A stretch of 21,201 bases of DNA from a virus. The stretch covers positions 1-21,201 of IMG/VR virus record IMGVR_UViG_3300033981_002212. One strand, given 5' to 3'. Under the pieces are notes generated by a model. It was not told the DNA's origin, searched no databases, and saw only the letters and a list, made by a program, of their open reading frames with translations. Shown here piece by piece: positions 3,244 to 21,132 of this stretch (within the stretch, counting starts at the first letter, position 1; each line of letters starts with the position of its first letter). Both the position numbers and the translations under genes were made by a program.

Positions 3244-3245
3244 GT

Positions 3246-4483: not shown

Positions 4484-5484
4484 AAGTGCTAATATGCGGA
4501 ATGACTGCGTCGCAATCTTCACAGGCTTTAAGTCGGCGAAACTTTTCTTTTGCCGGTTCAATTGACTATGCTCTTACTAAAGACGGGCACGAGGTTGTTT
4601 GGGCAGACCCTAGCGTTTTGTGGACAAAAAAAGATTTTGACGAGTATGACGTAGTTCTTGCAGGCGTTGCACCGATGCTCAGTATGACTGCAAACAAGAC
4701 ATACGGAATTCTTGCGCTAATTGCCACACTGTATGGAAGTAAAAAGCTTAGACTATTTGTAGATGCGCCAGAGCCTACTAAGATCCATGCGAGCCTTAGG
4801 TCAATTGACAAAGAAAACTCGCGGTTGGTAAAGCAACTATACTCGTCAAGAAAAGAATTCAAAGAAGTCACGCAAAATAAAAAATCAAAAGACAAAGTGA
4901 TCGCTGGAGCAAAAATATTGCTTTCTGAAAAATGGCCAAAAACTATCTACCCAAAGCTTCCAGTAGATCAGAGCGTGTCTGACTCTCCAGGTATTCCAGA
5001 GTCAATGAACAGTTCTTTCTCTGGCGTAAACCTTGATTCAATATTTATTGAAGACGGCATGGCACTAAAGAACAGGCAGAACTATTGGATTGTTGGAAAC
5101 ACGAAGGCTAAATGGTGCATTGACACTGCTGAACATTTAATGTACCCAACAGACGTAGCCAAAGAAAGCAGAACCTGGACAGACGAGCACGTTGTTGAAA
5201 AAGTGTCAAACTCACTTGGAGTGCTTATCGGTCCACACAATGATAAGTTGTTGTGGTGGTCTCCATTGTTTATTCAAGCAATGAACGCGCTTACTCCAAT
5301 TGCAACAGAGTGGCGCATTAGCTCAACTATCGGTAAAGACTGGAATCATCTAGCGGCTGGAATAGAAGAAATGTCGGCGCTTGATAGATATGAAATTGCA
5401 GTTGCTCAGCGAGAGCAATATGTCAACGTGGTTCGCAACCCTGTACACGCAGTAAATCATCTAAAAGGAGAGATAGGAATCTAA
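4480..5484 (+). CDS. Probable GT-B-like glycosyltransferase, divergent
   Basis: A 334-residue protein starting in the stop of the nucleotidyltransferase (ATGA). The N-terminus MKVLICGMTASQSSQ followed by IDYALTKDGHEVVWADP is a Rossmann beta-loop-alpha of the GT-B type, with a second strand EYDVVLAGVAP. The middle (about residues 95-180) is Lys/Ser-rich and poorly conserved. The C-terminal half has SLGVLIGPHNDKLLWWSP, PIATEWR and a Tyr/Glu-rich final helix, like the C-terminal domain of GT4-like enzymes that tracks nucleotide donors. No firm family could be assigned by eye. Position directly after the activating enzyme makes transfer of the activated group the likeliest role. It shares one base with the next gene (TAATG). 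Confidence 0.5.
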   Translation: MKVLICGMTASQSSQALSRRNFSFAGSIDYALTKDGHEVVWADPSVLWTKKDFDEYDVVLAGVAPMLSMTANKTYGILALIATLYGSKKLRLFVDAPEPTKIHASLRSIDKENSRLVKQLYSSRKEFKEVTQNKKSKDKVIAGAKILLSEKWPKTIYPKLPVDQSVSDSPGIPESMNSSFSGVNLDSIFIEDGMALKNRQNYWIVGNTKAKWCIDTAEHLMYPTDVAKESRTWTDEHVVEKVSNSLGVLIGPHNDKLLWWSPLFIQAMNALTPIATEWRISSTIGKDWNHLAAGIEEMSALDRYEIAVAQREQYVNVVRNPVHAVNHLKGEIGI

Positions 5485-6697: not shown

Positions 6698-7945
6698 ATG
6701 TCAGAATTTACTTTTAACGACTGCAACGGCCTCGCTGGCTTTATGAGCCTTGGCTTTGTAAACAAGGGCATTGATATGAATGTCCGCACAGGAACTTTGA
6801 ACTTTGGCAACCGTGTTGCTGAGCTAAACCGCAAGCATCTTGGCGACAACTGGTCTTCATTCTTTTCAGATGATCCAAATGAATGGCCAGACAACAAAGC
6901 CGACATCGTACTTGGCTGCCCTCCATGCTCTGGTTGGTCGGTGTGGTCTGGCCCTGCAAACCGCGGTCCTGACGCAAAGGCACACGAGCACACTCGCGCA
7001 TTTATGAAGTACGCCGCGCGCATCAAGCCGAAGATGATTATCTTTGAATGCGTGCAACAGGCGCTTACTCAAGGGCGCGATGCAATGATTAAGTACCGCG
7101 ACATGGTTGAAGAGCTTTCTGGAAAAGAATATGACCTGTACCATGTCAAGATGAACAACCTTCAGGTTGGTGGTTTTTCATACCGCATGCGTTACTTCTG
7201 GACTGCTGTTGAAAAAGGAATGCCATTCGGTGCAGAGGCAATTGCACCAGCAGAAATGCCAACAATGATGGACGTAATTGGTGACCTTGAGGATCTCGAC
7301 ATGTCATGGGATCCGCAGCCGTACAGAAAGGCTCCATCAAAGTTTGTTGAGCACCTTCGCAATGAAAGTGGCGTAGTTGACGGACACATCAACAAAACAA
7401 ACCTTGAAGGACAGCGCATCAAAGAAATCTTTGACATTCTTGGAAACGATGGTTGGAAGCCAATGACTCCAGTAAGCAAGGCGCTTCGAGAAGCTGTCGC
7501 AAAGAACAACGACCAGTTTCCACAGGCTTGGCTTGCACAAGAAGAAAAGCTTCGTGCCAGTGACTTCAACATGGGATTTACGATGCCGTGCCGTTGGGAT
7601 GGAAACTCGTGGGCGCACGTTATGACAGGCGGTGCACTTGATCACGTGATCCACCCAACACTCGAGCGTCGCATTACTCACCGCGAAGCTGCACGACTGC
7701 AGGGTCTTCCAGACGACTGGGAATTCGCTGCCGCAAAAGACTACTCGCCGTTGTCTGCAACTTGGGGCAAGGCAGTTGCAGTACAGGCCGCTGAATGGAT
7801 TGCTGACGCTGCAAAGGCATCACTTGAAGGACAGCCAAATGGCCCGCAGGGCGAACTAATCGGCGACCGCGAGTGGTTAGTCAATACAGACAAAGGCTTT
7901 AGCCGCCAGGCAGTTAAGAAGAAGTACTACACAAAAGAAAGCTAG
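6698..7945 (+). CDS. C5-cytosine DNA methyltransferase
   Basis: A 415-residue protein. Motifs in order: I as FNDCNGLAGFMSLGF (residues 6-20, SAM site), IV as GCPPCSGWS (73-81, catalytic Cys77), VI as FE117CV in place of ENV, VIII as S-Y-R-M-R (161-165) where the usual Gln is Ser, IX as RRITHREAARLQGLPDDW (324-341) and X as GKAV in place of GNAV. The region between VIII and IX (about 170-320) is the target-recognition domain. It methylates C5 of cytosine in DNA using SAM; the target site cannot be read. No restriction endonuclease is adjacent, so it is an orphan, probably for anti-restriction or as the first step of base modification. It has its own leader with CGGAGA before the ATG. Confidence 0.87.
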   Translation: MSEFTFNDCNGLAGFMSLGFVNKGIDMNVRTGTLNFGNRVAELNRKHLGDNWSSFFSDDPNEWPDNKADIVLGCPPCSGWSVWSGPANRGPDAKAHEHTRAFMKYAARIKPKMIIFECVQQALTQGRDAMIKYRDMVEELSGKEYDLYHVKMNNLQVGGFSYRMRYFWTAVEKGMPFGAEAIAPAEMPTMMDVIGDLEDLDMSWDPQPYRKAPSKFVEHLRNESGVVDGHINKTNLEGQRIKEIFDILGNDGWKPMTPVSKALREAVAKNNDQFPQAWLAQEEKLRASDFNMGFTMPCRWDGNSWAHVMTGGALDHVIHPTLERRITHREAARLQGLPDDWEFAAAKDYSPLSATWGKAVAVQAAEWIADAAKASLEGQPNGPQGELIGDREWLVNTDKGFSRQAVKKKYYTKES

Positions 7946-8975: not shown

Positions 8976-9517
8976 AAAAGCCTGGAGGCTTGAGCGACGT
9001 GGCGTGGATGGACGATGCCGCATGCGCACAGCCAGAAAACGCACACATTAAGAAGTACTGGTTCTCAAAAGTTCCAAAAGAAAAGTACGCAGCTAAAAAC
9101 TTATGCTACACATGTCCAGTAAGAAGTCAATGCCTTAAGTGGGCTCTTGAAAATAAACAAATACATGGCGTGTGGGGTGGAAAAGATGAAGGAGAACTTC
9201 GTCGTGCATTGTCCGTTTCATACACTGGCCAAGAAGTTAGACGTAAAAGATTTCCAAACTGCCCTCATTGCGGTGGTCGCCCTAATAAGCTTAGGGTAGT
9301 TGTTGCTGACTCACCAGAAGGCGGACGGTGGACAAAAATGAAGCTTGTAGTTTGTGATGAGTGCCAGTTCGTGTGGCGTAGCCGCACTAGCGCTAACGCC
9401 GTAACTGCGTACCACTCTGACCGTGAAACGCGTGATGAAAAGAAAAAGAACGAAAAAGAAAAAGCTAAAGAAAAGAAAGTAAAAAAGCTTAAGACTGCTT
9501 CACAGCCCAGCACCTAG
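8972..9517 (+). CDS. WhiB-family iron-sulfur regulator fused to a zinc ribbon
   Basis: A 181-residue protein. The WhiB domain (about residues 8-85) has the four [4Fe-4S] ligands as C18, C45-x2-C48 and C54, and the diagnostic turn GVWGG (66-70) with a basic segment after it. WhiB proteins are actinobacterial and actinophage factors that bind the principal sigma factor and respond to redox or NO. A second metal site follows: C97-P-H-C100 and C128-D-E-C131, a zinc-ribbon pattern not part of normal WhiB. Residues 149-173 are a Lys/Glu-rich charged tail. The start is GTG, coupled to the gene before (GTGA). The final 29 bases overlap the convergent methyltransferase gene. Confidence 0.85.
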   Translation: MKKPGGLSDVAWMDDAACAQPENAHIKKYWFSKVPKEKYAAKNLCYTCPVRSQCLKWALENKQIHGVWGGKDEGELRRALSVSYTGQEVRRKRFPNCPHCGGRPNKLRVVVADSPEGGRWTKMKLVVCDECQFVWRSRTSANAVTAYHSDRETRDEKKKNEKEKAKEKKVKKLKTASQPST

Positions 9518-10013
9518 TATCGGTGTCTTGGACGTTTACTTCGCCATCTGCGAATATCTGCAGGTACTGCGCTAATTCTGTTGCTGTAACATTCTTGTAG
9601 TATTCCCAACTACGAATTGGATTCTCATCTATAGCTGAGTGAGGTGGTCGTCCTTCTCCTGCCATCGTTGCAATGAAAAATCCACCGGGAACAAGGTGGT
9701 TGTACGCATTAGCAATGATTGACGGCCATACTGGAGTATGCTCAAATACCTCAGCACACACGATGATGTCAAACGGTGTATCGCTTCTAAACGCCACCCC
9801 GTCAACAACAATGTCTACACCAGGGCCTTCTTGAAGATCAATTCCAAGGTATGATCCACCTTCAGAAGTAAGTTCACTGAACATTGACTTAATGCTGCCA
9901 TTAATGTCAAGACTTCCGATCTCAAGAACGTTGTTCCCAGTTTTCTTTATACTCTCTCGAGCCGCAATCTGACTAAGTGAATAGCCAAACCACTGAGTTA
10001 CCGCGCCGTGCAT
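9489..10013 (-). CDS. Class I SAM-dependent methyltransferase
   Basis: A 174-residue Rossmann methyltransferase. Motif I is NVLEIGSLDINGS (residues 28-40), acidic post-I LGID59LQEGPGVD, motif II region FDIIVCAEVFEHT (81-93) and a later LVPGGFFIATMAG strand. This is the Methyltransf_11/23 pattern of small-molecule, sugar or protein methyltransferases, not a DNA base enzyme (no DPPY or PC motif). It follows the GT2-TPR-GT2 gene with a one-base gap, so it may methylate the sugar that the glycosyltransferase adds. Its 3' end overlaps the convergent WhiB gene by 29 bases. Confidence 0.77.
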   Translation of the reverse strand: MHGAVTQWFGYSLSQIAARESIKKTGNNVLEIGSLDINGSIKSMFSELTSEGGSYLGIDLQEGPGVDIVVDGVAFRSDTPFDIIVCAEVFEHTPVWPSIIANAYNHLVPGGFFIATMAGEGRPPHSAIDENPIRSWEYYKNVTATELAQYLQIFADGEVNVQDTDTRCWAVKQS

Positions 10014-10014
10014 G

Positions 10015-11754
10015 TTACGCCTCCAAATTCCATTTGATGTAGAACTTAAGCTTATCGTCTTGTACTACTTCTCTAAAGTTAGGTGGAGGATCGGTTGCAA
10101 TCGTGAGCGACCGATTTCCACTGCATCTTGTAATGCACGTCAGTACTCCGCGGCGCTTCTTTGTTGTGTTGCACCACATAAGTACATCGTCGTCTCCGTA
10201 CCACCACTTCATTGACTCGTCGAAGCGCCATTCTTTTGTCAGGTCTTCTGGAAGCACCATGCAAAATCCACCAAGTCCGCCACTGCCATCAGTTCTGCCG
10301 TTGCTTGTTGATGTCACGTCCTGAGTTATGTCAGTAAACTTTCTATAGTCATACAGCGGAGATGTTAGTCCAAGACTCTTGTCATACTCAAGAAGCGAGG
10401 CAAGTGAGCCAATACAGTTATCTTCAAGAACTACATCGTCGTTTACAAAGGCCGTTGCGGTGTTGTTCCTGGCAGACACAGCAATTCCGATGTTCCACAT
10501 GACGTGAATTCCAACAGCTAAGTCAACTTTCTTTAGCGTTACTTTTTCTTTATCTTTAAGAACTTTCTTGTATGTTGCATGCGCATTTGGTCCGTCTGCA
10601 ACCACAACAATTTCAATAACCTGTGGGTCGTTTTGCAGCTTTTCAATTACAGCTAACGCACCGGCCACGTTTGACTTTGTTGGAATCACTGCTGTAACCT
10701 GCACAGGATACGTCTCGCGAAGCATCATCGCAAGGTTTGACTGCAGTCTTTCGTTGTTTGGTTCAAACTTAAGCGCGTCTCGTATATACGAAATAGCCTC
10801 GTGTTTGTTTCCAATATTCCACGACGAGATTGCCGCAAGGTCATGAGGAAGAGCTCCCCATGCAGATGCGTCATTAAGGTATACCAGCGGCTTTTCTTTA
10901 ATTGTTAGCGCGCGCCTTGCTGATGACACGCAGTTTTCCCACTTGCCTGCCGTGTAGTAATGAAACGCAAGTTCAACCCACGGCTCACGGGAGTCGGGCG
11001 CCTCTGCCGCAGCGCGAAGAAGCCACGTCTCTGCCTCGTGCGGTTCTATCTTTGCTAAGTACCGCATTGACGCTGCTCGCTCTGGCCGCCACTGCGCTGT
11101 CGGTAGGGCTAAATGACGCTTGAATTCTGTTACAGCCTCGTCATTCTTTCCATAGAAGAATAATTCACGAGCGTAGTAGTAAGCGTTTCTATCGTCATTC
11201 GGGCGTTCGTCAACAGCTTTCTTAAGCAGAGGAAGATACTGTCCGCGGGACTTTGAAGAATCAGCATGATGATGAACTTCCATACCAATCCAAGCTTGAA
11301 ATTCATCGTTAGTTGGTGAAAGCACCTCGTGCACTGGGTGAACCCAGCGGTAGCCATGGCGTGCATGCGCTTTATCCGCGCCGTACACCAGGCCTTCTGT
11401 TCCGTCTGGGTTCCAATTCCACACATATTTGTAGCGTGGTCTTGTTGTTTCCTTTGGCATATTTTCTAGATGATCTCGCCAGCCTTCAACAAAGACTTCG
11501 TCCATGTCAAGCGCAATGCATATATCAATGTCAGGTGGTATCAGCGCAAGTGATGCGTTTCTAGCGTCGTCAAATCTCCAAGGTTTTACTGAAATTTGTA
11601 CAACATTAATGCCAAGCTTTCGTGCCTTTTCAATTGTGCCATCAGTTGAGCCTGTATCCGCAATTAGCAAATAGTCAGCGTTTTTAGCAGAATTGAACCA
11701 CGGCTCGACGAACTGCTCTTCATTTAGTGCTATTGTGTAGACTGCAATTTTCAT
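10015..11754 (-). CDS. Fused glycosyltransferase: GT2-TPR-GT2
   Basis: A 579-residue multidomain protein. Residues 1-165 are a GT2 domain of the LPS core-glycosyltransferase/SPBc2-like kind: AVYTIALNEEQF, IADTGSTDGT (31-40) and metal-binding ALD83MD85EVF. Residues about 175-345 are helical TPR-like repeats (NAYYYARELFFYGKNDEA, WVELAFHYYTAGKWENC, SWNIGNKHEAISYIRDAL). Residues 350-579 are a second GT-A domain (VTAVIPTKSN, VVVADGP, AFVND439DVVL and a late WWYGDDDVLMW). GT2-TPR proteins are known in bacteria and phages; the second GT domain is a notable addition. Two activities could build a disaccharide on one acceptor held by the TPRs. Overlap with the upstream gene is ATGA. Confidence 0.8.
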   Translation of the reverse strand: MKIAVYTIALNEEQFVEPWFNSAKNADYLLIADTGSTDGTIEKARKLGINVVQISVKPWRFDDARNASLALIPPDIDICIALDMDEVFVEGWRDHLENMPKETTRPRYKYVWNWNPDGTEGLVYGADKAHARHGYRWVHPVHEVLSPTNDEFQAWIGMEVHHHADSSKSRGQYLPLLKKAVDERPNDDRNAYYYARELFFYGKNDEAVTEFKRHLALPTAQWRPERAASMRYLAKIEPHEAETWLLRAAAEAPDSREPWVELAFHYYTAGKWENCVSSARRALTIKEKPLVYLNDASAWGALPHDLAAISSWNIGNKHEAISYIRDALKFEPNNERLQSNLAMMLRETYPVQVTAVIPTKSNVAGALAVIEKLQNDPQVIEIVVVADGPNAHATYKKVLKDKEKVTLKKVDLAVGIHVMWNIGIAVSARNNTATAFVNDDVVLEDNCIGSLASLLEYDKSLGLTSPLYDYRKFTDITQDVTSTSNGRTDGSGGLGGFCMVLPEDLTKEWRFDESMKWWYGDDDVLMWCNTTKKRRGVLTCITRCSGNRSLTIATDPPPNFREVVQDDKLKFYIKWNLEA

Positions 11755-12596
11755 TTTGGCATTGTCATAATACTATTGACGTACGAATTGGCGCTTCCAC
11801 TGTACTTGAACCGGCCAGTGTGCACTAAATCAATTGAAGGATCAAGCCACGTCTTTCCTCCGAGTTGCTGCCAGTATCTGCAAAAAGCGTAGTCTTCTGA
11901 AAGATACCGCTGGCGAGAGTCAATATGCGGATTGAAAAAATTGTACGAGTACTTTTTCTCTTCAGAACTCAGTCCGCCAGTGTCATCTACATACTTAAGT
12001 TCAGGGAATGCTTCAATCATTTTTTCAATTGTGCTTCGCTTAATAAGCATAAATCCAGTACCAAGGTCGTACGCAGATATTGCTCCATCTGAGATGTCTA
12101 CTTTTGTTTGGCCAGGCTCTATTGCGCTAAAAGCAAACCGTGCAGATTCTTTTACTGCCTGCCTTATCGGAATTCCTTCGCGTACCATAGCTTCTGTCTT
12201 TTCCCAGTTTATTTCTTTTACCGGGTACGCTCCAGCAATTACGTCTTTATTGTGCCACAGCAACTTGAGAATAGAGTCGGACTCAAACGATATATCTGAG
12301 TCAATAAAAAGCAAATGAGTGTACTCTGGATTTGCCATAAACTTTGCTACAAGCATATTTCTTGACCTTGAGATCAGTGAATCCGCTAAAGTGCTTACAC
12401 TTGTCTTTAGACCTATATTTGTAAATGTCAGCATTGACTTTATAAGTGACATCATGAACGGCTCTGTAACAGTGTTGTCATAGCATGGAACTGCGATATA
12501 CAGATTCCAGCTTTTAAGCTCTTCATTTGATATGACTATTTTGCCGGTCTCGTCTGGCGTAGCCTTGCTAGAAGTTTTGCTCTTTTTGATTGCCAT
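11751..12596 (-). CDS. GT-A glycosyltransferase
   Basis: A 281-residue protein. After a Lys/Ser-rich leader of about 25 residues comes LYIAVPCYDNTVTEPFMMSL, the first strand-loop of GT-A enzymes. SRSRNMLVAKF is the donor-binding Arg-x-R region and LLFIDSDISF (D99-S-D101) the DxD metal motif. DLGTGFMLIKR and LSEDYAFCRYW complete the fold, the latter containing the usual catalytic E-D. It resembles phage and cyanobacterial GTs annotated as Anp1-like or GT2. It is the first gene of a three-gene minus-strand unit with the GT2-TPR-GT2 and methyltransferase genes. The ATG has no clear SD; a TAATAT (12608-12603) lies immediately upstream, so the message may be leaderless. Confidence 0.76.
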   Translation of the reverse strand: MAIKKSKTSSKATPDETGKIVISNEELKSWNLYIAVPCYDNTVTEPFMMSLIKSMLTFTNIGLKTSVSTLADSLISRSRNMLVAKFMANPEYTHLLFIDSDISFESDSILKLLWHNKDVIAGAYPVKEINWEKTEAMVREGIPIRQAVKESARFAFSAIEPGQTKVDISDGAISAYDLGTGFMLIKRSTIEKMIEAFPELKYVDDTGGLSSEEKKYSYNFFNPHIDSRQRYLSEDYAFCRYWQQLGGKTWLDPSIDLVHTGRFKYSGSANSYVNSIMTMPK

Positions 12597-12662
12597 TCAT
12601 TCATATTATCTCGATAACCAGTGTAAAATTGGTAACAGCGTATAGTATTGAATAGAGGACAT
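12597..12662. promoter_or_regulatory. Divergent intergenic region, candidate back-to-back promoters
   Basis: This 66-base AT-rich gap separates a minus-strand gene (start 12596) from a plus-strand gene (start 12663). Plus strand: TATAGT (12641-12646), then AGAGGA (12654-12659) close to the ATG. Minus strand: TAATAT (12608-12603), which would place the start of RNA at about the ATG. No clear -35 is present for either. Expression of both units must begin here or upstream, so promoter function is likely although the exact elements are uncertain. Confidence 0.4.
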
Positions 12663-13694
12663 ATGCAAAATTTTTCAGAACCACCTGCTGACTTTGACAA
12701 ATGGCCAGTGCTGCCGTCTACTCCAAAAATTGGAGAAGCTGAGCTTTTAGAGATAAGTAAGCTTCAATACACAGACCTAGGCAGTGGTTTGGTTGTATTT
12801 CACGATGCCTTTAGCGTAGAAAAGTACGCTTTAGACTACATTGATCGTCGAGCATATGAAATTGGCAAAGATAGATGGTCATACGCTGTTGGAGAAGACG
12901 GAGTTGAGTACGGAATAAACGAAGATGGGTTTAGGTACCGTCTTGAAGATGTGCCAAACGCGCCTACGCGAATTCTTGCTCCAGTTGTTTACGAAACACC
13001 TAAAGATATTGTAGACTATTTTGTTGGGCTAGAAGACTCAATATACAAGTGCCTTATTAAGTATATTGATATGTTTCCTCTTGTCGTAGGAAGCCTGTGG
13101 TGGAAGACACGGGGGCACGTTCTTCGATACGACAGCGGTGGAGTCTTAGGATGGCACCAAGACAATGACACAAACTATAAAGTCACTGGTGGAGTTCGCT
13201 ATATGCCACGAGGTATGGTCGCCGCGAGGCAGACCGCAGGGGCTCTTGCGTATTTTAATGACTCAGTAGAAACGCAAGAAGAGCTCGATGGAGAAAACTT
13301 TTCAGGAGGGCATCTAAAATTTCCACACGCAAATGTAGAGTACATTCCTAAAAAAGGTGACATCATCTTTTTTCCTACAAACTACATTGCAGCACACGGC
13401 GTAACAAAAATGAATGGCGGTACGCGGTATGCATACTTAACATTTTTTGGCCAGGGTGGAAACGACGAAAGCGCGCACATCAACATAGTAGAAAGCTCAG
13501 AAAGTAGAGAATGGTGTCCACCTGTGTGGTTTGACAGTATCTACGACGACTACGAAATGTATTGCAAGTCTCAGTACTCCATTTGGTCTTTAAATGCTAC
13601 AGAACTTGAGCATGGGATTAACCCAGTGTTTCAAAACAGATGTGTAACGCAATACGGGCAAAGTCACACTGCTCAAGAAATTAAGAAAGCTTGA
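12663..13694 (+). CDS. 2OG-Fe(II) oxygenase, prolyl-4-hydroxylase-like (paralog A)
   Basis: About 343 residues from the ATG at 12663, preferred over an in-frame TTG at 12648 because AGAGGA precedes it. The double-stranded beta-helix core has the Fe(II) triad and 2OG-binding Arg: GWH165QD167ND, AAH245GVTKMNGGTR255YAYL. The segment LGSGLVVFHDAF before the core, YFNDS, and PKKGDIIFFPTNYIAAHG are shared with the three minus-strand genes that follow. It probably hydroxylates a peptide or small substrate with O2 and 2-oxoglutarate. It is the only gene of its island on the plus strand and it runs into paralog B with a 14-base tail-to-tail overlap. A 35-residue N-terminal extension and a C-terminal part of about 75 residues are specific to it. 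Confidence 0.8.
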   Translation: MQNFSEPPADFDKWPVLPSTPKIGEAELLEISKLQYTDLGSGLVVFHDAFSVEKYALDYIDRRAYEIGKDRWSYAVGEDGVEYGINEDGFRYRLEDVPNAPTRILAPVVYETPKDIVDYFVGLEDSIYKCLIKYIDMFPLVVGSLWWKTRGHVLRYDSGGVLGWHQDNDTNYKVTGGVRYMPRGMVAARQTAGALAYFNDSVETQEELDGENFSGGHLKFPHANVEYIPKKGDIIFFPTNYIAAHGVTKMNGGTRYAYLTFFGQGGNDESAHINIVESSESREWCPPVWFDSIYDDYEMYCKSQYSIWSLNATELEHGINPVFQNRCVTQYGQSHTAQEIKKA

Positions 13695-14445
13695 TCGCCC
13701 CTACTGGGACAAATCTTTGAGCTGAATTTGTATTGACTGTTTCGTACCCAGTTTCTTTTTTTATTTGATCTGTCATACGATGGTCTGAGCTATTTATTGG
13801 TCCCTGACCGTACCAACACAGGTATGCGTACCGTGTGCCTTCAGTGACTGCGGCAACTTCGTGGCAACCCATGTATGAAGAAGGATATATAAGAACTGAT
13901 CCAGGCTTTGGTCTTACTGAAATGCCCCACGGCCTGTATGACACTGTGCCGCCTTCAAAATCGTCATTAAAGAACAGCCCACAAGTAAGAATGTTTTGCA
14001 TTGGAAACGAGTTAACAGGAGTTACTCCATCTTCGGCGTATGCAATATTGCAGTCAGAGTGGGCGCCAATTGACTGACCGTTTTCATATTTGATGACGTA
14101 TCCGTTTGTTGCCCATCTTATGTTTTCAATCACTATTGGAAAAACCTTGCAGTACTCAACTACACACGAGTGGATTGCATCTCTAACTTCTTCAATAAAC
14201 TTCTTATCTTCTTGATTTAAGTTAGTCAGTTTAGAAAAACGGCGCGGCGCGTAGTCTGCATCATTTCTTGTGATCCTGTATCCGCCCTCTGTAAGCACGT
14301 ACGCTTCGTCTTCTTTAGCAACTACCTGTTCGTGGCGCCTATCAGTGTCGTGCAGTCTTTCAACAAAACTACTAAAGTAGTCGTTGTCAAAGGTAAACAC
14401 GTCTTTAAAATACACAATTCCGTTTCCTAAATGAACAGCATTCAT
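13681..14445 (-). CDS. 2OG-Fe(II) oxygenase (paralog B)
   Basis: A 254-residue P4H-type oxygenase, the shortest of the four paralogs. Ligands: IGAH129SD131CN and GCH195EVAAVTEGTR205YAYL. The N-terminus HLGNGIVYFKDVF matches the shared LGxGVVxF start, and FFNDDFEGGTVSY and PKPGSVLIYPSSYMGCHE are the family core. It lacks the 40-50 extra C-terminal residues of C and D. Its ATG overlaps the stop of paralog C (ATGA), so they are co-translated. Substrate unknown; soluble, no signal peptide. Confidence 0.8.
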   Translation of the reverse strand: MNAVHLGNGIVYFKDVFTFDNDYFSSFVERLHDTDRRHEQVVAKEDEAYVLTEGGYRITRNDADYAPRRFSKLTNLNQEDKKFIEEVRDAIHSCVVEYCKVFPIVIENIRWATNGYVIKYENGQSIGAHSDCNIAYAEDGVTPVNSFPMQNILTCGLFFNDDFEGGTVSYRPWGISVRPKPGSVLIYPSSYMGCHEVAAVTEGTRYAYLCWYGQGPINSSDHRMTDQIKKETGYETVNTNSAQRFVPVGAIKLS

Positions 14446-15302
14446 GAGCTCATTCTTTCTACTAATTGATAGGCGTGAGAAGATTTGTCATGGTCTATAC
14501 TGTCTAAATAATTTTTAAAGTCTTCGCGAAGAGTCGGCATGTACACGTTTGTTGCCGTTTTAGCAAGTTCTGGATCAGTTGCTGGATCTACTATATGCTC
14601 ATTAACTTCTTTATTTGGAGAACCCTGCGCATACCAACCAAGATACGAGTATCTGCTTCCGTTAATGATCGGTGTTACTTCGTGTGAAGCCATGTAGTTT
14701 GCTGGAAACATAAGAATGTCGCCTGAGTTTGGCTTGTAGTCTATGTCTAAGTAATTAAAGTAGTGGTGACCACCATCAAAATCATCGTTGATGTACACGA
14801 CGCAAGAAACACTATTTCTTGTAGCGAGTTGGTTGCCGGGGTGCGGATAGCCGTAAGCGTAGTCGGCACTTGTATCAGAGTGCGGGCCTAAAAAGCTTCC
14901 TCCGTATTGTGTGGAATACGAGACAAGGTGACCTTTGACTTTCCACCACACATTTTTATACGCAATTGGAAACAGCACGAAGTACTTTAAAAGATACTCG
15001 TCTTTAGCGCGCTCGACAGCTTCAATAAAATCGCGAACATCGTCGCGGCTTGTTCCGTGTATTTGCGAACCCCTGCGAGGCATTATGTCAACACCGTATG
15101 CTTTAAAGTAGTATCCGCTTTTATTTAAGTATGCTGGTTCTCCAGTTTCTGGGTCTACAGCTTTAGTGTACATTTCTTCACGTTCTTTGCTAATTTGTTC
15201 TTCTGCAAACTGAACTGCCCAGGCGACGTCAAAAGATATTGCATTGCGAAACAGTACGACGCCTCCACCAAGGTGCTCGGCTTCTACATTGTTATTTAGC
15301 AT
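14442..15302 (-). CDS. 2OG-Fe(II) oxygenase (paralog C)
   Basis: A 286-residue protein. Fe(II) and 2OG ligands: LGPH141SD143TS and ASH207EVTPIINGSR217YSYL. The start HLGGGVVLFRNAISFD is the paralog signature, and INDDFDGGHHYFNY and SGDILMFPANYMASHEV complete the core. WWKVKGHLVSY before the H-x-D is shared with A and D (WWKTRGHVLRY, WWREQGHVAAY). The ATG lies inside the end of paralog D (11-base overlap). The last ~55 residues, ending in SYQLVERMSS-like polar sequence, are not assigned. Confidence 0.8.
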   Translation of the reverse strand: MLNNNVEAEHLGGGVVLFRNAISFDVAWAVQFAEEQISKEREEMYTKAVDPETGEPAYLNKSGYYFKAYGVDIMPRRGSQIHGTSRDDVRDFIEAVERAKDEYLLKYFVLFPIAYKNVWWKVKGHLVSYSTQYGGSFLGPHSDTSADYAYGYPHPGNQLATRNSVSCVVYINDDFDGGHHYFNYLDIDYKPNSGDILMFPANYMASHEVTPIINGSRYSYLGWYAQGSPNKEVNEHIVDPATDPELAKTATNVYMPTLREDFKNYLDSIDHDKSSHAYQLVERMSS

Positions 15303-16218
15303 TTTTTCTCTTTTCCTTAAGAACTTCTTCTGTCGTGCCGCTGCTAGTTAGCGTTCTTCCAAGAGGAAGAGTTAGGTGCGGGTAGTTTATTAAGTCTTCT
15401 CCGTATTTATTTTTTAAGTAAAAATGATAGTCATTGAATAGATCTGGCATCCAAACTTGACCTGAACAGAGAAAATCTAAATCTTCAAGAGGAGATATTC
15501 CACGCTCATGGTCTGGAGAACCTTGAGAAAAATAAGCAATGTAGACGTATCGTGTGCCTTCGTACACATCTTTGACTTCATGAACCGCCATGTAGTTAGA
15601 TGGAAACATCAACACGTCTCCTTTCTTTGGCCTGTATGTAATTCCAAGGTACTTAAAGTCTAACTCTCCACCAACATACTCGTACTTAGTGAGGTCTGCA
15701 TTTTCTTCTACTGAGTCATTAAAGTACAGAAGAGCACCCACAACGTGTCGTGTCGCTAATTGCATATCAGGGACTGCGCCTGGGCTGTAGTTTACATCAT
15801 TGTCAGAATGGTAGCCCATTGCGCCGCTTGGTCGGTAGGCCGCAACGTGCCCCTGTTCTCTCCACCATAGAGATGGAAGAATTAGTGGAAATAGCTCGAT
15901 GTATCTTATGAGGCAGTCGTAGATAACATCTTCGCATGAAGCAAAAAACTTGTAGGCTTTACTTTCTTTATCATCTGTAGCAAAACCAGTTAGTCTATTT
16001 ACTTTGTAAATACCGTCAATTTCGTACCTATGACCGGAATTATTTATTGCGTACAGCGGTTCGCCATTTTCGTCGTGAATAATTGTGTACTCTTTTTCAA
16101 CAATTCCTTCATGTATTGCGGAAAGATGAGGAATTAGAAAACTATGATCAATGTTTTCTAGGGCGTTCCTAAACACAACAACGCCGCTGCCAAGATGCTC
16201 AGGCTTTGGATCAAACAT
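15292..16218 (-). CDS. 2OG-Fe(II) oxygenase (paralog D)
   Basis: A 308-residue protein. Ligands: MGYH137SD139ND and AVH213EVKDVYEGTR223YVYI. It is visibly closest to paralog A: both have SLWW...GHV, an H-x-D-N-D-x-N-Y string, GAL-x-YFNDSVE followed by a variable Glu-rich loop, and a C-terminal W-x-P...D-x-Y segment. B and C have the shorter ND-DF-x-GG loop instead. It is separated by 12 bases from the peroxidase-like gene upstream, so all are probably one transcript. Likely peptidyl or small-molecule hydroxylase, substrate unknown. Confidence 0.8.
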   Translation of the reverse strand: MFDPKPEHLGSGVVVFRNALENIDHSFLIPHLSAIHEGIVEKEYTIIHDENGEPLYAINNSGHRYEIDGIYKVNRLTGFATDDKESKAYKFFASCEDVIYDCLIRYIELFPLILPSLWWREQGHVAAYRPSGAMGYHSDNDVNYSPGAVPDMQLATRHVVGALLYFNDSVEENADLTKYEYVGGELDFKYLGITYRPKKGDVLMFPSNYMAVHEVKDVYEGTRYVYIAYFSQGSPDHERGISPLEDLDFLCSGQVWMPDLFNDYHFYLKNKYGEDLINYPHLTLPLGRTLTSSGTTEEVLKEKRKNAK

Positions 16219-16230
16219 AAGCGTATTCTA

Positions 16231-16860
16231 CTACTTTTTGTAGTCAGAAGTTAGCATTTCTACTGCACCTTTTATTGTCCACTCGCTCTCGTTAGTTAGG
16301 GATACCTCTGCAAGTGGCCAGTTTCTGTAGCTAAATCTCATGAGTTGTTGCCCGTCACGACCGACAATAAACTTTTCATTGTTGCCTGGCACTCTTGCAA
16401 TTGCTTGGTTGGCAAGATTTTGCCCGGCCATTGCTGCGGCGCTGGTGTCGGCTGGGCTGTCGTCAGACCGCCGTGTCTCGGTTCCTTTGAGTATTGTAAA
16501 GATCCTGTGCTCATTTGCTCCATTTACGTCTACTTTTTCGGTGACTGGAAACGTGACAAACGGGTACGCTGTTTCTAAGAACTCGGCTATTTCTTTGTTT
16601 GAAGATGGCTCCATTCCATAGAACTGATTGCATGGAAGTCCTACGACAGAAAATCCTTTGTCGTAGTACATTTCGTGAAGTTGTTGAAGTTCCCATAGCT
16701 GCCGTGAAGTTCTAGCAAACGACCACATAGGGCTACACGTCGGCGTGTACCCACATTTTGTTGCGATATTCACAAATAGGCATACTTTGCCTTTTACAGT
16801 GCTAAGAATATCTTGGTCTCCGTTTATTGAACTAATCGGTACTTCAAAAATAGATGTCAT
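16231..16860 (-). CDS. Glutathione-peroxidase-like thioredoxin-fold protein
   Basis: A 209-residue GPx-family protein. KGKVCLFVNIATKCGYT carries the peroxidatic Cys36 (the selenocysteine position of animal GPx). GLPCNQFYGMEPSSNKEI gives C77 and catalytic Gln79, and FPVTEKVDVNGANEHRIF and NEKFIVGRDGQQLMRF complete the fold. The Trp of the catalytic tetrad (usually W-N-F-x-K-F) is replaced, as GNNEKF. About 20 residues are inserted after residue 40 (TCSPMWSFARTSRQLWE) compared with typical GPx, and an Ala-rich loop sits at 138-155. It reduces hydroperoxides, probably using thioredoxin. Its ATG overlaps the stop of the oxygenase at 16857 (ATGA), so the two are co-translated. Confidence 0.82.
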   Translation of the reverse strand: MTSIFEVPISSINGDQDILSTVKGKVCLFVNIATKCGYTPTCSPMWSFARTSRQLWELQQLHEMYYDKGFSVVGLPCNQFYGMEPSSNKEIAEFLETAYPFVTFPVTEKVDVNGANEHRIFTILKGTETRRSDDSPADTSAAAMAGQNLANQAIARVPGNNEKFIVGRDGQQLMRFSYRNWPLAEVSLTNESEWTIKGAVEMLTSDYKK

Positions 16861-17843
16861 TGAACTACCAGTCCTTCAATTGAAACTGACATAAACTTTC
16901 CAATATCAGCAGTCCCTGCTATAAACCCGGTGGACCGATCAACAGTAAATCTTAAGTCAACATCTGTGGTCATTGGTGTGCTTACTGCAAAACAAGCACA
17001 AAATGACGTTCCATCAAAACTAACGTCTTCAATATCTACTCGGCCTCTGTAGTGTGTAATTGCCGCGGTTGTTTTTCCAGTCATCTCGACACTGTAGTCG
17101 TCCGTGCCAAGAGGAGATCTTACTTTAAGAGAAAATTGAGTAGGCTCAATTGCTTGAGTCTGGTCTGGCGCTTCGTACGCAAATTTGTTTAGCGCAAGCC
17201 CGCGGGGAGGATTGTTTTTATGCCAAACATTTACAACCATTACCTGACGTGTCCCCGACTTAGCAGGAGTTGTTCCGTGCAAAACGTGGCCAGTGTCAAA
17301 GATGACTAAGCGGTTTCCTCTGTACGCAATTCTTTCAAGATCTTCAGTTGGTGAAAACAATGATTCAATATTTTCTCTTTCGAGCGCGTTTTTCTCGCCG
17401 TCAGTGAGAACACTCTTATGAATCTCTAGAAAACCTCCGTCATGGTTATGTTCTCCGTAGTACACGCAGCCAGCAATTGGCCCACTGAAAGTCTTGCTTT
17501 CTTCATAAAGAAATGTGTCTTCGTCAACATGAGGACTTAGTACCTGCCCAGGGCCAAAAGTCCTGGTCCAGTACTCAAAACCAACGATATCTTCTAACTG
17601 ATAATCAAGGTTATTTTCCCATATCGCACGAATTACTTTTTTCTTAAGCGTGTTCGCTGGGCTTTTCCACCAACCGTCCCAGAACAAGTACGGAGAGTAC
17701 ACACTAGAATCTTGGTAGTGGTACGAGTTTAGTTGCTCTGCTATTCTTTGGCCGTCACCCATTGACTCGGGGAAGAAAGAATTATCGCTTCTAACCGCGC
17801 TAAGAAGCTGCTGATCTGTTATGAAGTTATCTATGACTTTCAT
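16857..17843 (-). CDS. 2OG-Fe(II) oxygenase with extra beta-rich C-terminal domain
   Basis: A 328-residue protein. The core (1-215) starts MKVIDNFITDQQLL, as in P4H-like oxygenases. Ligands: SPH105VD107ED, GHVLH189GTTPAKSGTR199 and the closing strand VMVVNVW; VYYGEHNHDGGFLEIH is the intervening sheet. It belongs to the P4Hc/2OG-FeII_3-like branch, distinct from paralogs A-D. Residues about 235-328 are an additional domain with alternating strands (FSLKVRSPLG, GKTTAAITHYRGRVDIEDVSFDG, TPMTTDVDLRFTVD, ISM-like end SVSIEGLVVQ), perhaps a small barrel for substrate binding. Its start overlaps the upstream methyltransferase-like gene by ATGA and its stop overlaps the peroxidase start. Confidence 0.78.
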   Translation of the reverse strand: MKVIDNFITDQQLLSAVRSDNSFFPESMGDGQRIAEQLNSYHYQDSSVYSPYLFWDGWWKSPANTLKKKVIRAIWENNLDYQLEDIVGFEYWTRTFGPGQVLSPHVDEDTFLYEESKTFSGPIAGCVYYGEHNHDGGFLEIHKSVLTDGEKNALERENIESLFSPTEDLERIAYRGNRLVIFDTGHVLHGTTPAKSGTRQVMVVNVWHKNNPPRGLALNKFAYEAPDQTQAIEPTQFSLKVRSPLGTDDYSVEMTGKTTAAITHYRGRVDIEDVSFDGTSFCACFAVSTPMTTDVDLRFTVDRSTGFIAGTADIGKFMSVSIEGLVVQ

Positions 17844-18568
17844 TTCTTAACCGCCACTGTATATCCATAGTGCAAAGGAATGTGGTACACGTACAAAGAT
17901 TCATCGCTTTTTAGTTCGTCGTGCAGGTCAAACATTGGGTGTGCGTCTGTCTCGTTTTCGTAGAGAAACGCCCAGTCTGAGCTTCCATTGATCAAAAGCA
18001 TGCCTTTGTCGTTCAGTAAAGACGTGTAGTAATGAATGTTTGTAAACGTCGTATCTACTTGGTTATGCCATAGTTCAATCAAATCAAACTTTTTTGAATT
18101 GCCTGACTCTAGATCTTGCATGGTAAGAACATCATAGTTGACACTTGCAAATCTTGGGTTTATTGTCTTTACGCATTGCTCGAAGTAGTCAAGGAAAACC
18201 GTGTTTAGTAGAGTAACATCAACATTTGCGTCTTCGCAGCATTGAATTACGCGGGTGTTAGACATGTCTGGCCCGCATATCAACACTGACTTTGGTTGTT
18301 GCAGTTGATACAAAAGATCTTGTATTACTTGCGAAAGCGTATATGTACGCAAAGTTCTTTCATTTGTATCGGCAAACATTTCCCATGGAAATATTGACAA
18401 GTCAACACCTCCCGTGGCTATGTTTCTTCTGTCAAAGTCCAGTGCCGCTGTGTACTCAGCCATAATTGTAGAAGATAGTTTGTAGTACTTGCCAGGAAAT
18501 GACGGCACGTAACTTTGAGTTTTAGAGAATGCATCAACAATTCGTGGAATGTTATAGCTGTTATCCAC
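17840..18568 (-). CDS. Probable SAM-methyltransferase-fold protein
   Basis: 242 residues from the GTG at 18568. A longer frame begins at 18691 but would overlap the upstream gene by 131 bases; in that stretch the upstream frame has codon use like the rest of the window (GTT, GCA, AAG) while this frame uses rarer AGG, TTA and TCC. With the GTG at 18568 the overlap is 8 bases (GTGGATAA). PKSVLICGPDMSNTRVI (92-108) is a Rossmann first strand, FLDYFEQCVKTINP a helix, FDLIELWHNQ (161-170) the strand-4 region and LLNDKGMLLINGSSD the strand-5 turn, the order of class I methyltransferases. The SAM Gly-loop is unusual (GPDMSN), so activity is uncertain. Confidence 0.55.
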   Translation of the reverse strand: MDNSYNIPRIVDAFSKTQSYVPSFPGKYYKLSSTIMAEYTAALDFDRRNIATGGVDLSIFPWEMFADTNERTLRTYTLSQVIQDLLYQLQQPKSVLICGPDMSNTRVIQCCEDANVDVTLLNTVFLDYFEQCVKTINPRFASVNYDVLTMQDLESGNSKKFDLIELWHNQVDTTFTNIHYYTSLLNDKGMLLINGSSDWAFLYENETDAHPMFDLHDELKSDESLYVYHIPLHYGYTVAVKK

Positions 18569-19034
18569 GGCTGGCAACCTGAATTCTGTGATTTGCTCTT
18601 CGGATACCTCTAACCATAGCAATGTTTTTTCTTTTGATGTAAACTTGGCCTGCCAGCTCGTGTGCAACTTGCTTGTACTTGTACACTTCACGGACCTTAT
18701 GAATTAGGTCATCTACAGTAAGACGGTCAATCTCATCGTCAGAGAATCCCAACACGTACATGTGCGCGTGCAACTGTGTCTTGTGGTACTCGTAGTCTGC
18801 GCCACTATCGTACTTTTTTACTGTGTCTGAATGCGCAACATCTGTCGGGCTGTCCCATACAAGATGAGTTTCTCCACGAGGGAGTCTTTCTACTGGAGGA
18901 CCGTACAAATGACAATGAGCTGAAGAACCGTTTTCAACCACCCATGTTTCAGTAGCTTTGTCCCAAACTACGCCATTGTTGTCTAATGATGGGTAGTCAG
19001 TCGGATCTTGCCCAACCATTTCTTCACTATTCAT
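18561..19034 (-). CDS. Hypothetical protein
   Basis: A 157-residue protein from the ATG at 19034 (a TTG two codons upstream is possible); the ATG overlaps the previous stop as ATGAATAG. The N-terminal half is acidic and Trp/Pro-containing (NGVVWDKATETWVVE, GPPVERLPRGETHLVWD). The middle is a His-rich stretch (HKTQLHAHMYVLG) and DDEIDRLTVDDLIHKVREVY is a helix. The end is strongly basic (KRKNIAMVRGIRRANHR), which could contact nucleic acid. No family is recognised. It is placed between oxygenase and methyltransferase genes on the same transcript. Confidence 0.6.
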   Translation of the reverse strand: MNSEEMVGQDPTDYPSLDNNGVVWDKATETWVVENGSSAHCHLYGPPVERLPRGETHLVWDSPTDVAHSDTVKKYDSGADYEYHKTQLHAHMYVLGFSDDEIDRLTVDDLIHKVREVYKYKQVAHELAGQVYIKRKNIAMVRGIRRANHRIQVASRG

Positions 19035-19218
19035 TATCAAGTAGCTTTCTGTAGGCAGCTACTTCATGCATTAAGCAATAGTATGAGTCGTACATCTGTG
19101 AAGACTTGTCTACAGGAATTTCAGTAAGAGAAAACGCATCTACTCCTAGAATTGATTGCAGCGTGTCTATAGACTTTTTTAGATACTGCTTTGCCTGTTC
19201 TTTTGCTAAGTCATTCAC
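19027..19218 (-). CDS. Small helical hypothetical protein
   Basis: A 63-residue protein starting with GTG inside the stop of the oxygenase upstream (GTGA) and ending inside the next gene. It is mostly helical: LAKEQAKQYLKKSIDTLQSIL and SYYCLMHEVAAYRKLL flank a short Leu-Thr-Glu-Ile-Pro turn. No known domain. Overlaps at both ends support that it is translated. It may be an adaptor or subunit for a neighbour, but that is a guess. Confidence 0.55.
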   Translation of the reverse strand: MNDLAKEQAKQYLKKSIDTLQSILGVDAFSLTEIPVDKSSQMYDSYYCLMHEVAAYRKLLDNE

Positions 19219-19790
19219 TTGTCACCTCTGTACACACCCATGTCTGGCACCTCTGTGATGTTTGGATTTTTTGGCTTTAAGTTAAAACTGATTGCAACCC
19301 TAGGCGTGTCAGACTGGTGCATAGTTGTAAAATGCGGAACATACGAGTTAAAAAACGCTACTTTGCCAATCTCTGGCTTTATCTTGGTCATTGACTCAAT
19401 CCTGTTATAGCCAAATGAATGTAAAACCAACTCGGCTGAGTTGTCGTCAGAAGATGTGTAGACAACTCCACTCCAATATTCTTCTGGTCTCATGTGAGTG
19501 TTGGAGTGGTGTGAATGGTATGAAACCGACTCGCCCTTGCTAGTCGTAGTCGCCCATATGTCTGTTAGGTTTACTGGCAATGGAAGAACAGTATTTGCTA
19601 ATAGTTCAATAGAGTTTCGCAACTTGTGGCATTCATTTGAGTCTGGATACACGCGAAAACCATAGCCTCTTGAAAACACCAAGTCCTGTTGAAGAACTTC
19701 CGCTGTCACTACGCCATAGTCAATGCCGTCAATTTGAGAGACATAGGCATGCGTTGCCATTAAAGTTAGCAACTCATGCATGCGGTTCAT
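19215..19790 (-). CDS. 2OG-Fe(II) oxygenase, TIGR02466/PF13759-like
   Basis: A 191-residue cupin-like oxygenase of a subfamily different from the other five. IWATTTSKGESVSYHSHHSN matches the W-x-N...KG...H-x-H start of TIGR02466-type proteins (metal ligands among H92 and H94). YWSGVVYTSSDDNSAELVLH is the S-G-V-x-Y region, IGKVAFFNSYVPH153FTTMH the distal His, and DTPRVAISFNL the Arg strand (R164). An Asp in the usual second-ligand position is not obvious, so iron binding might use His. The ATG at 19790 overlaps the DUF6065 gene by 17 bases; a second ATG at 19781 would overlap by 8. Confidence 0.68.
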   Translation of the reverse strand: MNRMHELLTLMATHAYVSQIDGIDYGVVTAEVLQQDLVFSRGYGFRVYPDSNECHKLRNSIELLANTVLPLPVNLTDIWATTTSKGESVSYHSHHSNTHMRPEEYWSGVVYTSSDDNSAELVLHSFGYNRIESMTKIKPEIGKVAFFNSYVPHFTTMHQSDTPRVAISFNLKPKNPNITEVPDMGVYRGDK

Positions 19791-20478
19791 TCAGTTTTGG
19801 TAGTCCAGTAAATGTTGGCCCGATGCGGTTACCGTCTGCGTCTAGCCCTGTTTTGATACCTTTAGTCCAAGTCCATGGATTGTCTTCTTGGTTCTTCATC
19901 TTCATATCGCTATACTTGACCCGAGACTCAATAAGGTCTGGCTTATCCCAGATATTGCCTACTTCAAATTCTACAGACTCTAAAAGATTTTCTGGGTAGA
20001 TAGTGAAAAAACAATATGGAGTACCTGCTGGAAAAGTCACTGGCTCGTTGACCTTGGTAATCTTCCAATTCATTTGAACTTCGTCAGGCCACCAACTGCT
20101 TGGGATAGTTGCCGCAAGAGGAACTGCGCCATCAATGAAGTAGTTTGGTGAGCCAGTCACCCAAGTCGCATAACCTTCTTCAGTGTTGATAGCCCAGCCG
20201 GTGCTAAGAGAAATAATCCCAATCATAGACGGGTGGGCAACTTGCCTGTCTTTTTGCGTTCCTCCGCTTATCACTTTGACAACACTATTTCCACCTTCCC
20301 AAATAACCACAAGATCTTCGTCCAGCACAAGCTCCCAACCGCTGACATTTGCTACTGTCATTGGCAGGCATTGATACGCATGCTTATTGTAAGTATCGTC
20401 CATCCAATCTCGCTTGATACGAGACTGCTGAACTAATGGTGCGTTTTGATGTCCCCGAGTTAGCCGTACTTTTGTCAT
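19774..20478 (-). CDS. DUF6065 family protein
   Basis: A 234-residue protein. HAYQCLPMTVANVSGWELVL (34-53) is the signature start of DUF6065, then VIWEGGNSVVKV, a Gly/Ser-rich segment with ISLSTGWAINTEEGYATWVTG and PAGTPYCFFTIYPE. The family has no established activity; members are often found with 2OG oxygenases and methyltransferases in phage and bacterial clusters, as here. The fold is predicted by eye to be largely beta. A SD AAAGG lies about 11 bases before the ATG. It starts the coupled run of genes going leftward. Confidence 0.68.
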   Translation of the reverse strand: MTKVRLTRGHQNAPLVQQSRIKRDWMDDTYNKHAYQCLPMTVANVSGWELVLDEDLVVIWEGGNSVVKVISGGTQKDRQVAHPSMIGIISLSTGWAINTEEGYATWVTGSPNYFIDGAVPLAATIPSSWWPDEVQMNWKITKVNEPVTFPAGTPYCFFTIYPENLLESVEFEVGNIWDKPDLIESRVKYSDMKMKNQEDNPWTWTKGIKTGLDADGNRIGPTFTGLPKLNEPHA

Positions 20479-20529
20479 TTGATGATGTACCTTTCGCTAG
20501 TCTTACTGTGTCTTAAGATGCCTGCTTCT

Positions 20530-21132
20530 TTACTCTTCTTCATTAAGTAGCGTTTCAATTGCTTCCTTGATAAAAATTAGCGCTGTGTCTGCGTCAATTG
20601 ATCTGTCGCCGGCGTCGTAGCCTAAGTTAAGAAGATCTGAATTGCAGAACCTAAATATCTTTTTTCCATTTTTTGAGATAATGATTTTTTCAAAGTTTCC
20701 TTGCATTGGGCCGCCAATACTTTGAAGTTTTTCATACAATGGGTGTATGTCAAGCCCCGTCTTTGAGTTTTCAACAGTTGCAGTTAGCTTTGAAAACGGA
20801 AGATCTGTCTTATACAGTTTTTTCATATGATCTCTCATATTTTGAGGACTTGCGTTTGAATCCGTAAACTCACCGTAAGCGTGCTCGCAAAAATCTGTGC
20901 TTGGCACAGCCACTACTTCGAATCCTCGGTCTTTATACTCGTCATAAAGAGATTGAATAGGAATGTACTGCGCCGAGTTAGCGCACTCGCCGGTGACATT
21001 TACGATCATTGTTACTTTGCCTTTGTTACTTTCAAGAACATTGACGCCAGAGTCAAGGTCTTCAAGAACAAACTCGTACAGCGACGTGCCAAGATCTTCT
21101 AACACTGGGATTTCTTCTGGTCGTATTTCCAT
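20530..21132 (-). CDS. Second, divergent glutathione-peroxidase-like protein
   Basis: A 200-residue thioredoxin-fold protein. NKGKVTMIVNVTGECANSAQ places a Cys (C50) where GPx has its peroxidatic residue, and LYDEYKDRGFEVVAVPS aligns with the helix-strand that precedes the GPx Gln. That motif is lost: CNQF is replaced by STDF (C82 follows). The Trp position of the C-terminal motif is Gly (QGNFEKIIISKNGKKIFRF), although the F-E-K-I is well kept. Residues 1-33 form an extra N-terminal segment with an acidic run (EEIPVLEDLG). Peroxidase activity is doubtful; it may have been repurposed. A good SD (AGAGGA) precedes the ATG. Confidence 0.72.
   Translation of the reverse strand: MEIRPEEIPVLEDLGTSLYEFVLEDLDSGVNVLESNKGKVTMIVNVTGECANSAQYIPIQSLYDEYKDRGFEVVAVPSTDFCEHAYGEFTDSNASPQNMRDHMKKLYKTDLPFSKLTATVENSKTGLDIHPLYEKLQSIGGPMQGNFEKIIISKNGKKIFRFCNSDLLNLGYDAGDRSIDADTALIFIKEAIETLLNEEE

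Follow-up and report, generated by a model that had tools for sequence, protein, structure and literature searches.

Six genes for 2OG-Fe(II) oxygenases, clustered in a 21,201-nucleotide stretch of viral DNA (IMG/VR record IMGVR_UViG_3300033981_002212, positions 1 to 21,201; hereafter the window), belong, on the evidence of sequence comparison, to a single conserved operon-like module in a tailed phage. The module comprises about 12 genes, occupies positions 12663-21132 and runs past the window's end, and is thus larger than the 12663-19790 to which an earlier note on this DNA had confined the feature, the partner genes having escaped notice. Few unexplained auxiliary genes of aquatic phages are as numerous as those for 2OG oxygenases, and the conservation of a quartet of them, with its order, partners and catalytic residues, across phages with differing tails replaces a vague "auxiliary metabolism" by a proposal that can be tested, namely that the attachment proteins of the phage are modified post-translationally in an oxygen-dependent way. 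Our preferred reading, to which we assign a probability of roughly 0.45, is that the module is expressed late and hydroxylates proteins of the tail fibre or virion as its putative substrates.

Open reading frames are present at all six positions (12663, 13681, 14442, 15292, 16857 and 19215), and a profile search places every product at or above the Pfam gathering score for 2OG-Fe(II) oxygenases (PF13640 for five, PF13759 for one), as the earlier note had claimed from motifs. Four of them, denoted A to D, match PF13640: A (12663..13694, + strand, 343 aa from its ATG; 38.3 bits, E = 2.6e-09), B (13681..14445, - strand, 254 aa; 37.5 bits, 4.6e-09), C (14442..15302, - strand, 286 aa; 47.0 bits, 5.2e-12) and D (15292..16218, - strand, 308 aa; 36.1 bits, 1.4e-08). 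A TTG at 12648 is a possible alternative start for A. The fifth, ox5 (16857..17843, - strand; PF13640, 8.3e-06), scores barely above the cut-off (27.1 versus 27.0 bits) and is fused at residues 235-324 to a domain, s103, described below, while the sixth, OX6 (19215..19790, - strand; PF13759, 38.1 bits, 2.1e-09), belongs to a family found in 38 loci. The H-x-D...H...R set that had been ascribed to five of the six is indeed there: A has H165/D167/H245/R255, D has H137/D139/H213/R223, and ox5 shows HxD and a distal H..R by eye; five is the correct count because OX6 has HSH where HxD is expected, so that its iron triad is not clear. For A-D, 217 of 220 distinct proteins have the catalytic H, D, H and R unbroken and the remaining three have alignment gaps at those sites; the active sites have therefore been retained, as was proposed.

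Comparative analysis shows A-D to be old orthologs, separately maintained and with intact Fe(II)/2OG sites, insofar as this can be read from sequence. D matches its three paralogs with E-values of 4e-33 or better at 31-37% identity, far beyond chance, which upholds the common ancestry suggested for these tandem genes; a recent local duplication, however, is ruled out by the tree, in which they fall into four old orthologous groups (support 100 for A, B and C, 83 for D). Pseudogene decay is likewise ruled out, by the intact sites and by low dN/dS (medians of 0.05-0.13 across the module genes, indicating purifying selection, with dS near saturation). The picture of related phages carrying one working copy, with the rest as broken pseudogenes, is contradicted by the presence of all four groups in 33 of 35 distinct virus loci, a count that, like those below over 35 distinct loci, was taken over module loci of 14 kb or more. 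Gene order is A-D-C-B in 35 loci and, in most others, D-C-B with A inverted; in the window, A lies on the + strand, converging on the other three, and overlaps B by 14 bp. A cellular origin was considered and rejected: in 200 genomes of one bacterial phylum other than Actinobacteria, the A-D profile matched in just 7, weakly and in the core domain, and the one metagenome-assembled genome with strong matches has all of them on a single phage-like contig.

The oxygenases, of which a median of eight per locus are recognisable across the 35 distinct loci, are accompanied by a set of recurrent partners. Two are glutathione-peroxidase-like (GPX-like) proteins, one at 16231..16860 (- strand; PF00255, 1.2e-26, 92.8 bits versus a cut-off of 27) and a second, more diverged, at 20530..21132 (- strand; PF00255, 6.8e-12, 45.4 versus 27 bits); both fall below the NCBIfam glutathione peroxidase equivalog cut-offs, and the family occurs in all 35 distinct loci. 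Nearly as constant is a DUF6065 protein (19774..20478, - strand; PF19541, 5.6e-43, 147.6 bits versus a cut-off of 26.6), present in 33 of the 35; DUF6065, which also served as the query of our one genome scan, gave no match in named phages and nothing significant among PDB sequences, and is not named by any paper found in our literature search. A protein without a Pfam match but Rossmann/methyltransferase-like by eye (17840..18691, - strand) has family members in 28 of the 35 loci and a median dN/dS of 0.07, its start being uncertain because of a 131-bp overlap with the next reading frame. That frame (18561..19040, - strand) is placed in the module by its operon position and by a C-terminal part that, by eye, resembles s106, a small protein of the module in relatives, as seen in loci L020 and L012, and it is followed by s76 (19027..19218, - strand), a protein of 63 aa, probably helical by eye, whose family occurs in 40 loci. 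Alignments of s76, s78, s84 and s106 lacked by eye the conserved-leader/variable-core pattern of RiPP precursors, a role that was accordingly rejected for them. The s103 domain, of 100 aa, stands alone in most phages, yet it is joined to ox5 in the window (E = 1.2e-19), to OX6 in three loci (L008, L009 and L011) and to DUF6065 in three more (L043-L045); it matched nothing in the PDB and nothing significantly in Pfam. Like the Rossmann-like protein, ox5 and s103 belong to the module in most cases.

Large tail-fibre-like genes adjoin the module in all contigs inspected (picked by length, not at random), and those compared with PHROG matched its tail or virion families. Beside these genes, in phages whose tails differ, the module is tightly packed and for the most part shares their strand. 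In one relative with a window-like gene layout (G004), a fibre gene is followed by those for an fn3 protein and PhyH, then by three 2OG genes, DUF6065 and further genes, with neighbours overlapping or at most 12 bp apart, save for one gap of 204 bp. The host of the source phage is probably an actinobacterium; the actinophage papers found by our literature search do not mention 2OG oxygenases. Since the module is kept intact beside tail-fibre genes in many related phages, it may modify the phage's own attachment proteins. The tail or virion protein that the earlier note had offered as a target fits this adjacency in the contigs examined, the target itself staying putative, and a position beside fibre genes is not proof of action on fibres.

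Structure prediction, run on D as the one protein modelled of the six, gave an AF2 model of pLDDT 96 with a double-stranded beta-helix of the protein-prolyl-hydroxylase kind, whose best matches (Z about 16) are P3H1, PHD2, the PBCV-1 viral prolyl hydroxylase and an algal P4H. The PDB entries nearest by profile belong to PKHD hydroxylases, prolyl 4-hydroxylases, P3H1 and, at weak strength, LH3. With the prolyl and lysyl hydroxylases (PHD2, P3H1, LH3, PBCV-1) A-D have in common the HxD...H...R arrangement, but identity is about 15-19% and the module has no regular collagen-like partner. The basic residue that binds 2OG is Lys in prolyl 4-hydroxylases of the collagen and viral type, whereas an Arg ten residues after the distal His is the arrangement of P3H and lysyl hydroxylases; A-D have Arg in place of the P4H-type Lys, ten residues past the distal His. 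The PKHD-type enzymes (PiuC, YbiX, Sbal_3634) are the top sequence-profile matches among solved structures and give partial NCBIfam matches, yet these stay below the equivalog cut-offs (NF003972-NF003975; best 32.7 versus 143 bits), and the N- and C-terminal parts of A-D are longer. A prolyl-hydroxylase fold does not fix the substrate, as the superfamily acts on small molecules too.

If the preferred reading is right, the module genes would be made late, together with the fibres, and A-D and ox5 would be protein hydroxylases of prolyl/lysyl-hydroxylase type, each specific to one site or residue, with the tail-fibre or adhesin proteins of the neighbouring genes as their substrates. As a shared binding part, the s103 domain could bring enzymes and substrate together, and the GPX-like proteins may deal with thiols or peroxide while this oxygen-dependent reaction proceeds. 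The hydroxyls would stabilise the fibre, alter its binding or give the phage's glycosyltransferases a point of attachment. We advance more tentatively the fuller version of this proposal, a dedicated virion-protein hydroxylation machine in aquatic actinophages, in which four non-interchangeable hydroxylases, together with DUF6065, a GPX-like protein and a common docking domain, would place several hydroxylations on the fibre. Such a machine would parallel, in phages, the apparatus with which eukaryotes modify collagen, but with fibre substrates other than collagen. If attachment proteins are indeed modified in an oxygen-dependent way, host recognition and fibre stability would gain a further layer, the siting of such oxygenase genes next to those for fibres would be accounted for, and DUF6065 and the s103 domain would stand out as functional partners.

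Some relatives carry accessory genes in the same stretch (an AurF-like oxygenase, TauD, PhyH, a tryptophan halogenase, an NAD-binding dehydrogenase-like gene and, by eye, desaturase-like and radical-SAM-like genes), and the desaturase-like, AurF-like, TauD, PhyH and halogenase enzymes count against our reading in that they also fit small-molecule or lipid chemistry. Together with the glycosyltransferases, nucleotidyltransferase and kinase-like gene of the window, they favour a tailoring pathway for a small molecule, lipid or surface glycan, with hydroxylation of successive positions on a metabolite, a lipid or a sugar of the host surface or the virion glycan, and with a fibre-side place owed to a shared insertion hot-spot. 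We consider such a pathway less likely than the preferred reading: these accessory enzymes vary between phages, in contrast to the nearly invariant quartet, GPX and DUF6065, NRPS, PKS and carrier-protein genes were not recognised in the annotated stretches, and the nearest solved structures are mostly protein hydroxylases. One of the fold matches of D, 4iw3, is the structure of a bacterial P4H bound to EF-Tu, and a 2OG-related role has been proposed for T4-like cyanophages (PMC3037559); both would suit auxiliary genes that reprogram host metabolism, for instance by consuming 2-oxoglutarate or by modifying proteins of the host, EF-Tu and ribosomal ones among them, but lowering 2OG needs no four conserved paralogs with fixed partners and order, and the module sits with fibre genes, which makes this reading improbable. 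Modification of phage nucleotides or DNA by TET/JBP-like hydroxylation, with DUF6065 as nucleotide-binding partner, echoes the modified nucleotide of the earlier note and is very improbable, for apart from a C5 cytosine methylase elsewhere in the window (6698-7945) nothing favours it beyond a weakly dUTPase-like DUF6065 model (Z 9.4, with rmsd above 5 Å for most matches), while none of the window's proteins matches Tet_JBP significantly (E 0.09 or worse), the best folds are those of protein hydroxylases and the module sits with the fibre genes, apart from those for replication.

Collagen-like repeats are the classic target of P4H, and such a substrate was suggested by the Actinomycetia phage DSL-LC01 (OQ999401), which is 78% identical in nucleotides to the window in the RecA-like region and shares its layout up to a WhiB gene, after which comes a reverse-strand block opening with a glycosyltransferase. 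The corresponding region of DSL-LC01 holds tryptophan halogenase and collagen-like genes, but its whole 129-kb genome yielded no member of the A-D family, the module has no regular partner of this kind, and Gly-X-Y runs of eight or more, absent from the window, are rare near the module, with short ones in only three loci of the initial set; the collagen-like substrate was therefore set aside. In the literature searched, the quartet and the module appear undescribed. A 28.8-kb stretch of the cyanophage S-SCSM1 has neither an A-D ortholog (best quartet-profile match E = 1.6e-17) nor DUF6065, and S-SCSM1 and Nanhaivirus ms29 differ further in their cyanobacterial host and in that the parts of their description available to us give no fixed quartet or partner set. 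Multi-copy 2OG genes as such are known from T4-like cyanophages, S-SCSM1 having 24 (PMC9602691); for that phage a virion proteome of 974 peptides from CsCl-purified particles exists (PMC9602691). Nanhaivirus ms29 has eight 2OG-Fe(II) oxygenase genes, four of them consecutive, and these cyanophages resemble the window in carrying many PF13640/PF13759 paralogs per phage, some of which in S-SCSM1 lie beside annotated tail-fibre genes.

All six genes at 12663-19790 that the earlier note had read as 2OG-Fe(II) oxygenases reach the Pfam gathering score, five with PF13640 and the sixth, OX6 (19215), with PF13759, although the gene at 16857 (ox5) passes the PF13640 threshold by only 0.1 bit. The claim that four of them, A (12663), B (13681), C (14442) and D (15292), are paralogs with a retained active site also held: a D query recovers the other three at E 4e-33 or better, and H, D, H and R are common to all four. 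A lies on the + strand of the window, and B, C and D on the - strand, with reading frames that overlap one another. Phages with many 2OG genes are already known: S-SCSM1 carries 24, with no function tested (PMC9602691), and Nanhaivirus ms29 has eight listed, including a run of four (PMC10436341). In S-SCSM1, too, 2OG genes lie among those for fibres, but the stretch examined contains neither a close A-D relative nor DUF6065 (PF19541), and no description of a fixed quartet with its module was found in the open-licence papers searched. 2OG-oxygenase proteins here hit PHROG families 3531, 2297 and 274, whose labels read 'ferrochelatase', 'DNA endonuclease' and 'DNA endonuclease V', and an S-SCSM1 gene annotated 'ferrochelatase' (NC_070962 216908-218269) matches the quartet profile at 1.6e-17; these labels are probably propagated mis-annotation.

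Sequence comparison indicates that the quartet is old and retained. A four-oxygenase profile matched 330 virus contigs, 80 of which were fetched, their ORFs called mechanically and their loci ranked by similarity to gene A, which biases the sample towards relatives of the window. Nearly all carry several oxygenase copies, and two tree methods divide the sequences into four groups, one for each window gene (support 100 for A, B and C, 83 for D). Gene order is A-D-C-B in 35 loci and D-C-B with two A copies beyond in 22; all four groups occur in 33 of the 35 distinct loci of at least 14 kb, which carry a median of 8 recognisable oxygenases. Of 220 distinct proteins, 217 retain the four catalytic residues (H, D, H and R) and three are gapped at these positions. 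Median dN/dS is 0.05-0.07 for A-D, a soft value as dS nears saturation. Group A is doubled in one phage set (A-A, L024 9995-11969) and group D in another (D-A-D-C-B, L043-L045), so copy number in the quartet is still changing.

By its gene content, the quartet is part of a module. The same 35 loci contain a glutathione-peroxidase-like gene (GPX, PF00255; 35/35), DUF6065 (33/35), ox5 (29/35), a Rossmann-like gene resembling that at 17840 (28/35), a free-standing gene for the 100-aa domain s103 (25/35) and OX6 (18/35). The window order is GPX-DUF6065-OX6-small-small-Rossmann-ox5-GPX-D-C-B, with A on the opposite strand and minus-strand genes overlapping or at most 51 bp apart. Mostly a gene of its own, and with no recognisable relative in Pfam or PDB, s103 is present in the window as a fusion at the ox5 C-terminus (residues 235-324, E 1.2e-19); elsewhere it is joined to OX6 (L008, L009, L011) or DUF6065 (L043-L045). 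Because one domain is fused in turn to three different members, ox5, OX6 and DUF6065 are suggested to act together.

Gene neighbourhoods place the module at a tail-fibre locus. The related contig G004, laid out like the window, has on its minus strand a fibre-like gene (truncated at the contig end), an fn3-domain gene, PhyH, three more 2OG genes, then DUF6065 and the rest, neighbours overlapping or at most 12 bp apart save for one 204-bp gap. Among contigs picked by length, large fibre-like genes also adjoin the module in G006, G009, G011, G012, G017, G021, G023 and L139, and those tested with PHROG profiles have tail-fibre, minor-tail or virion identity. The window stops before this region, and we infer its own fibre adjacency from these relatives. 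G021-like phages have contractile-sheath genes beyond the module, whereas none was seen next to it in G011; module-bearing phages therefore differ. Tryptophan halogenase genes occur at the fibre locus of two phages, one with the quartet and one without (L137 16597-18114 in G023, PF04820, 5.9e-95; DSL-LC01 record 102221-103792). L139 comes from a genome collection (DUCD01000215.1, a contig in a Verrucomicrobiales MAG). Besides fibre-like genes it carries DUF6065 and several oxygenases of the A-D type, and since every match in that MAG is confined to this contig, it appears to be phage sequence that was binned with a bacterial genome. The search for cellular relatives covered one phylum other than Actinobacteria.

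Against solved structures, a 65-sequence profile matched PKHD-type hydroxylases best (1.2e-07), followed by prolyl 4-hydroxylases and P3H1, lysyl hydroxylase LH3 not being significant. The predicted D structure (pLDDT 96) matches P3H1, PHD2, the PBCV-1 viral prolyl hydroxylase and an algal P4H at Z ~16 (rmsd ~3-4 A over 163-198 residues), which speaks for a hydroxylase with a fold of the protein-hydroxylase group, not for a particular substrate; the DUF6065 model (pLDDT 84) weakly resembles dUTPases. The genetic facts behind the module are strong, and the best-supported mechanism, to which we give a probability of roughly 45% with its substrate step inferred, is that the oxygenases hydroxylate adjacent fibre or virion proteins in an O2-dependent manner, each with a distinct site and assisted by shared partner proteins. 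Tailoring of a small molecule, lipid or glycan is the main rival, if a doubtful one, since the module region of some relatives contains further oxidative enzymes (AurF-like oxygenase, TauD dioxygenase and PhyH; L059 2030-3139, L019 10933-11787 and L128 5417-6133); methyltransferase, desaturase and radical-SAM labels of some neighbours were assigned by eye. Host reprogramming, as proposed for cyanophages (PMC3037559), is improbable, and nucleotide modification, which the earlier note had suggested, very improbable.

The 21,201-base virus record is probably a fragment. Its + strand half encodes a WhiB regulator (PF02467, 8.3e-17) besides genes for replication, sugars and DNA modification. WhiB genes occur in all five related contigs above 150 kb and in 9 of 28 contigs overall, many of the 28 being fragments; judged by these WhiB genes in the window and its relatives, the host is probably an actinobacterium. 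At the DNA level the window resembles a single phage record, that of Actinomycetia phage DSL-LC01, which was assembled from a metagenome (78% identity, ~1 kb). At 1235-5484 (+ strand) lies a run of sugar or surface-decoration-like genes, encoding a glycosyltransferase-like protein without a Pfam match, an APH-like kinase, a HAD hydrolase, a MobA-like nucleotidyltransferase and another large protein; the kinase-nucleotidyltransferase pair is reminiscent of LicA/LicC-type pathways. The minus-strand genes between WhiB and A (9489-12596) encode a methyltransferase, a TPR-repeat glycosyltransferase and another glycosyltransferase-like protein, whose family is present at other loci too.
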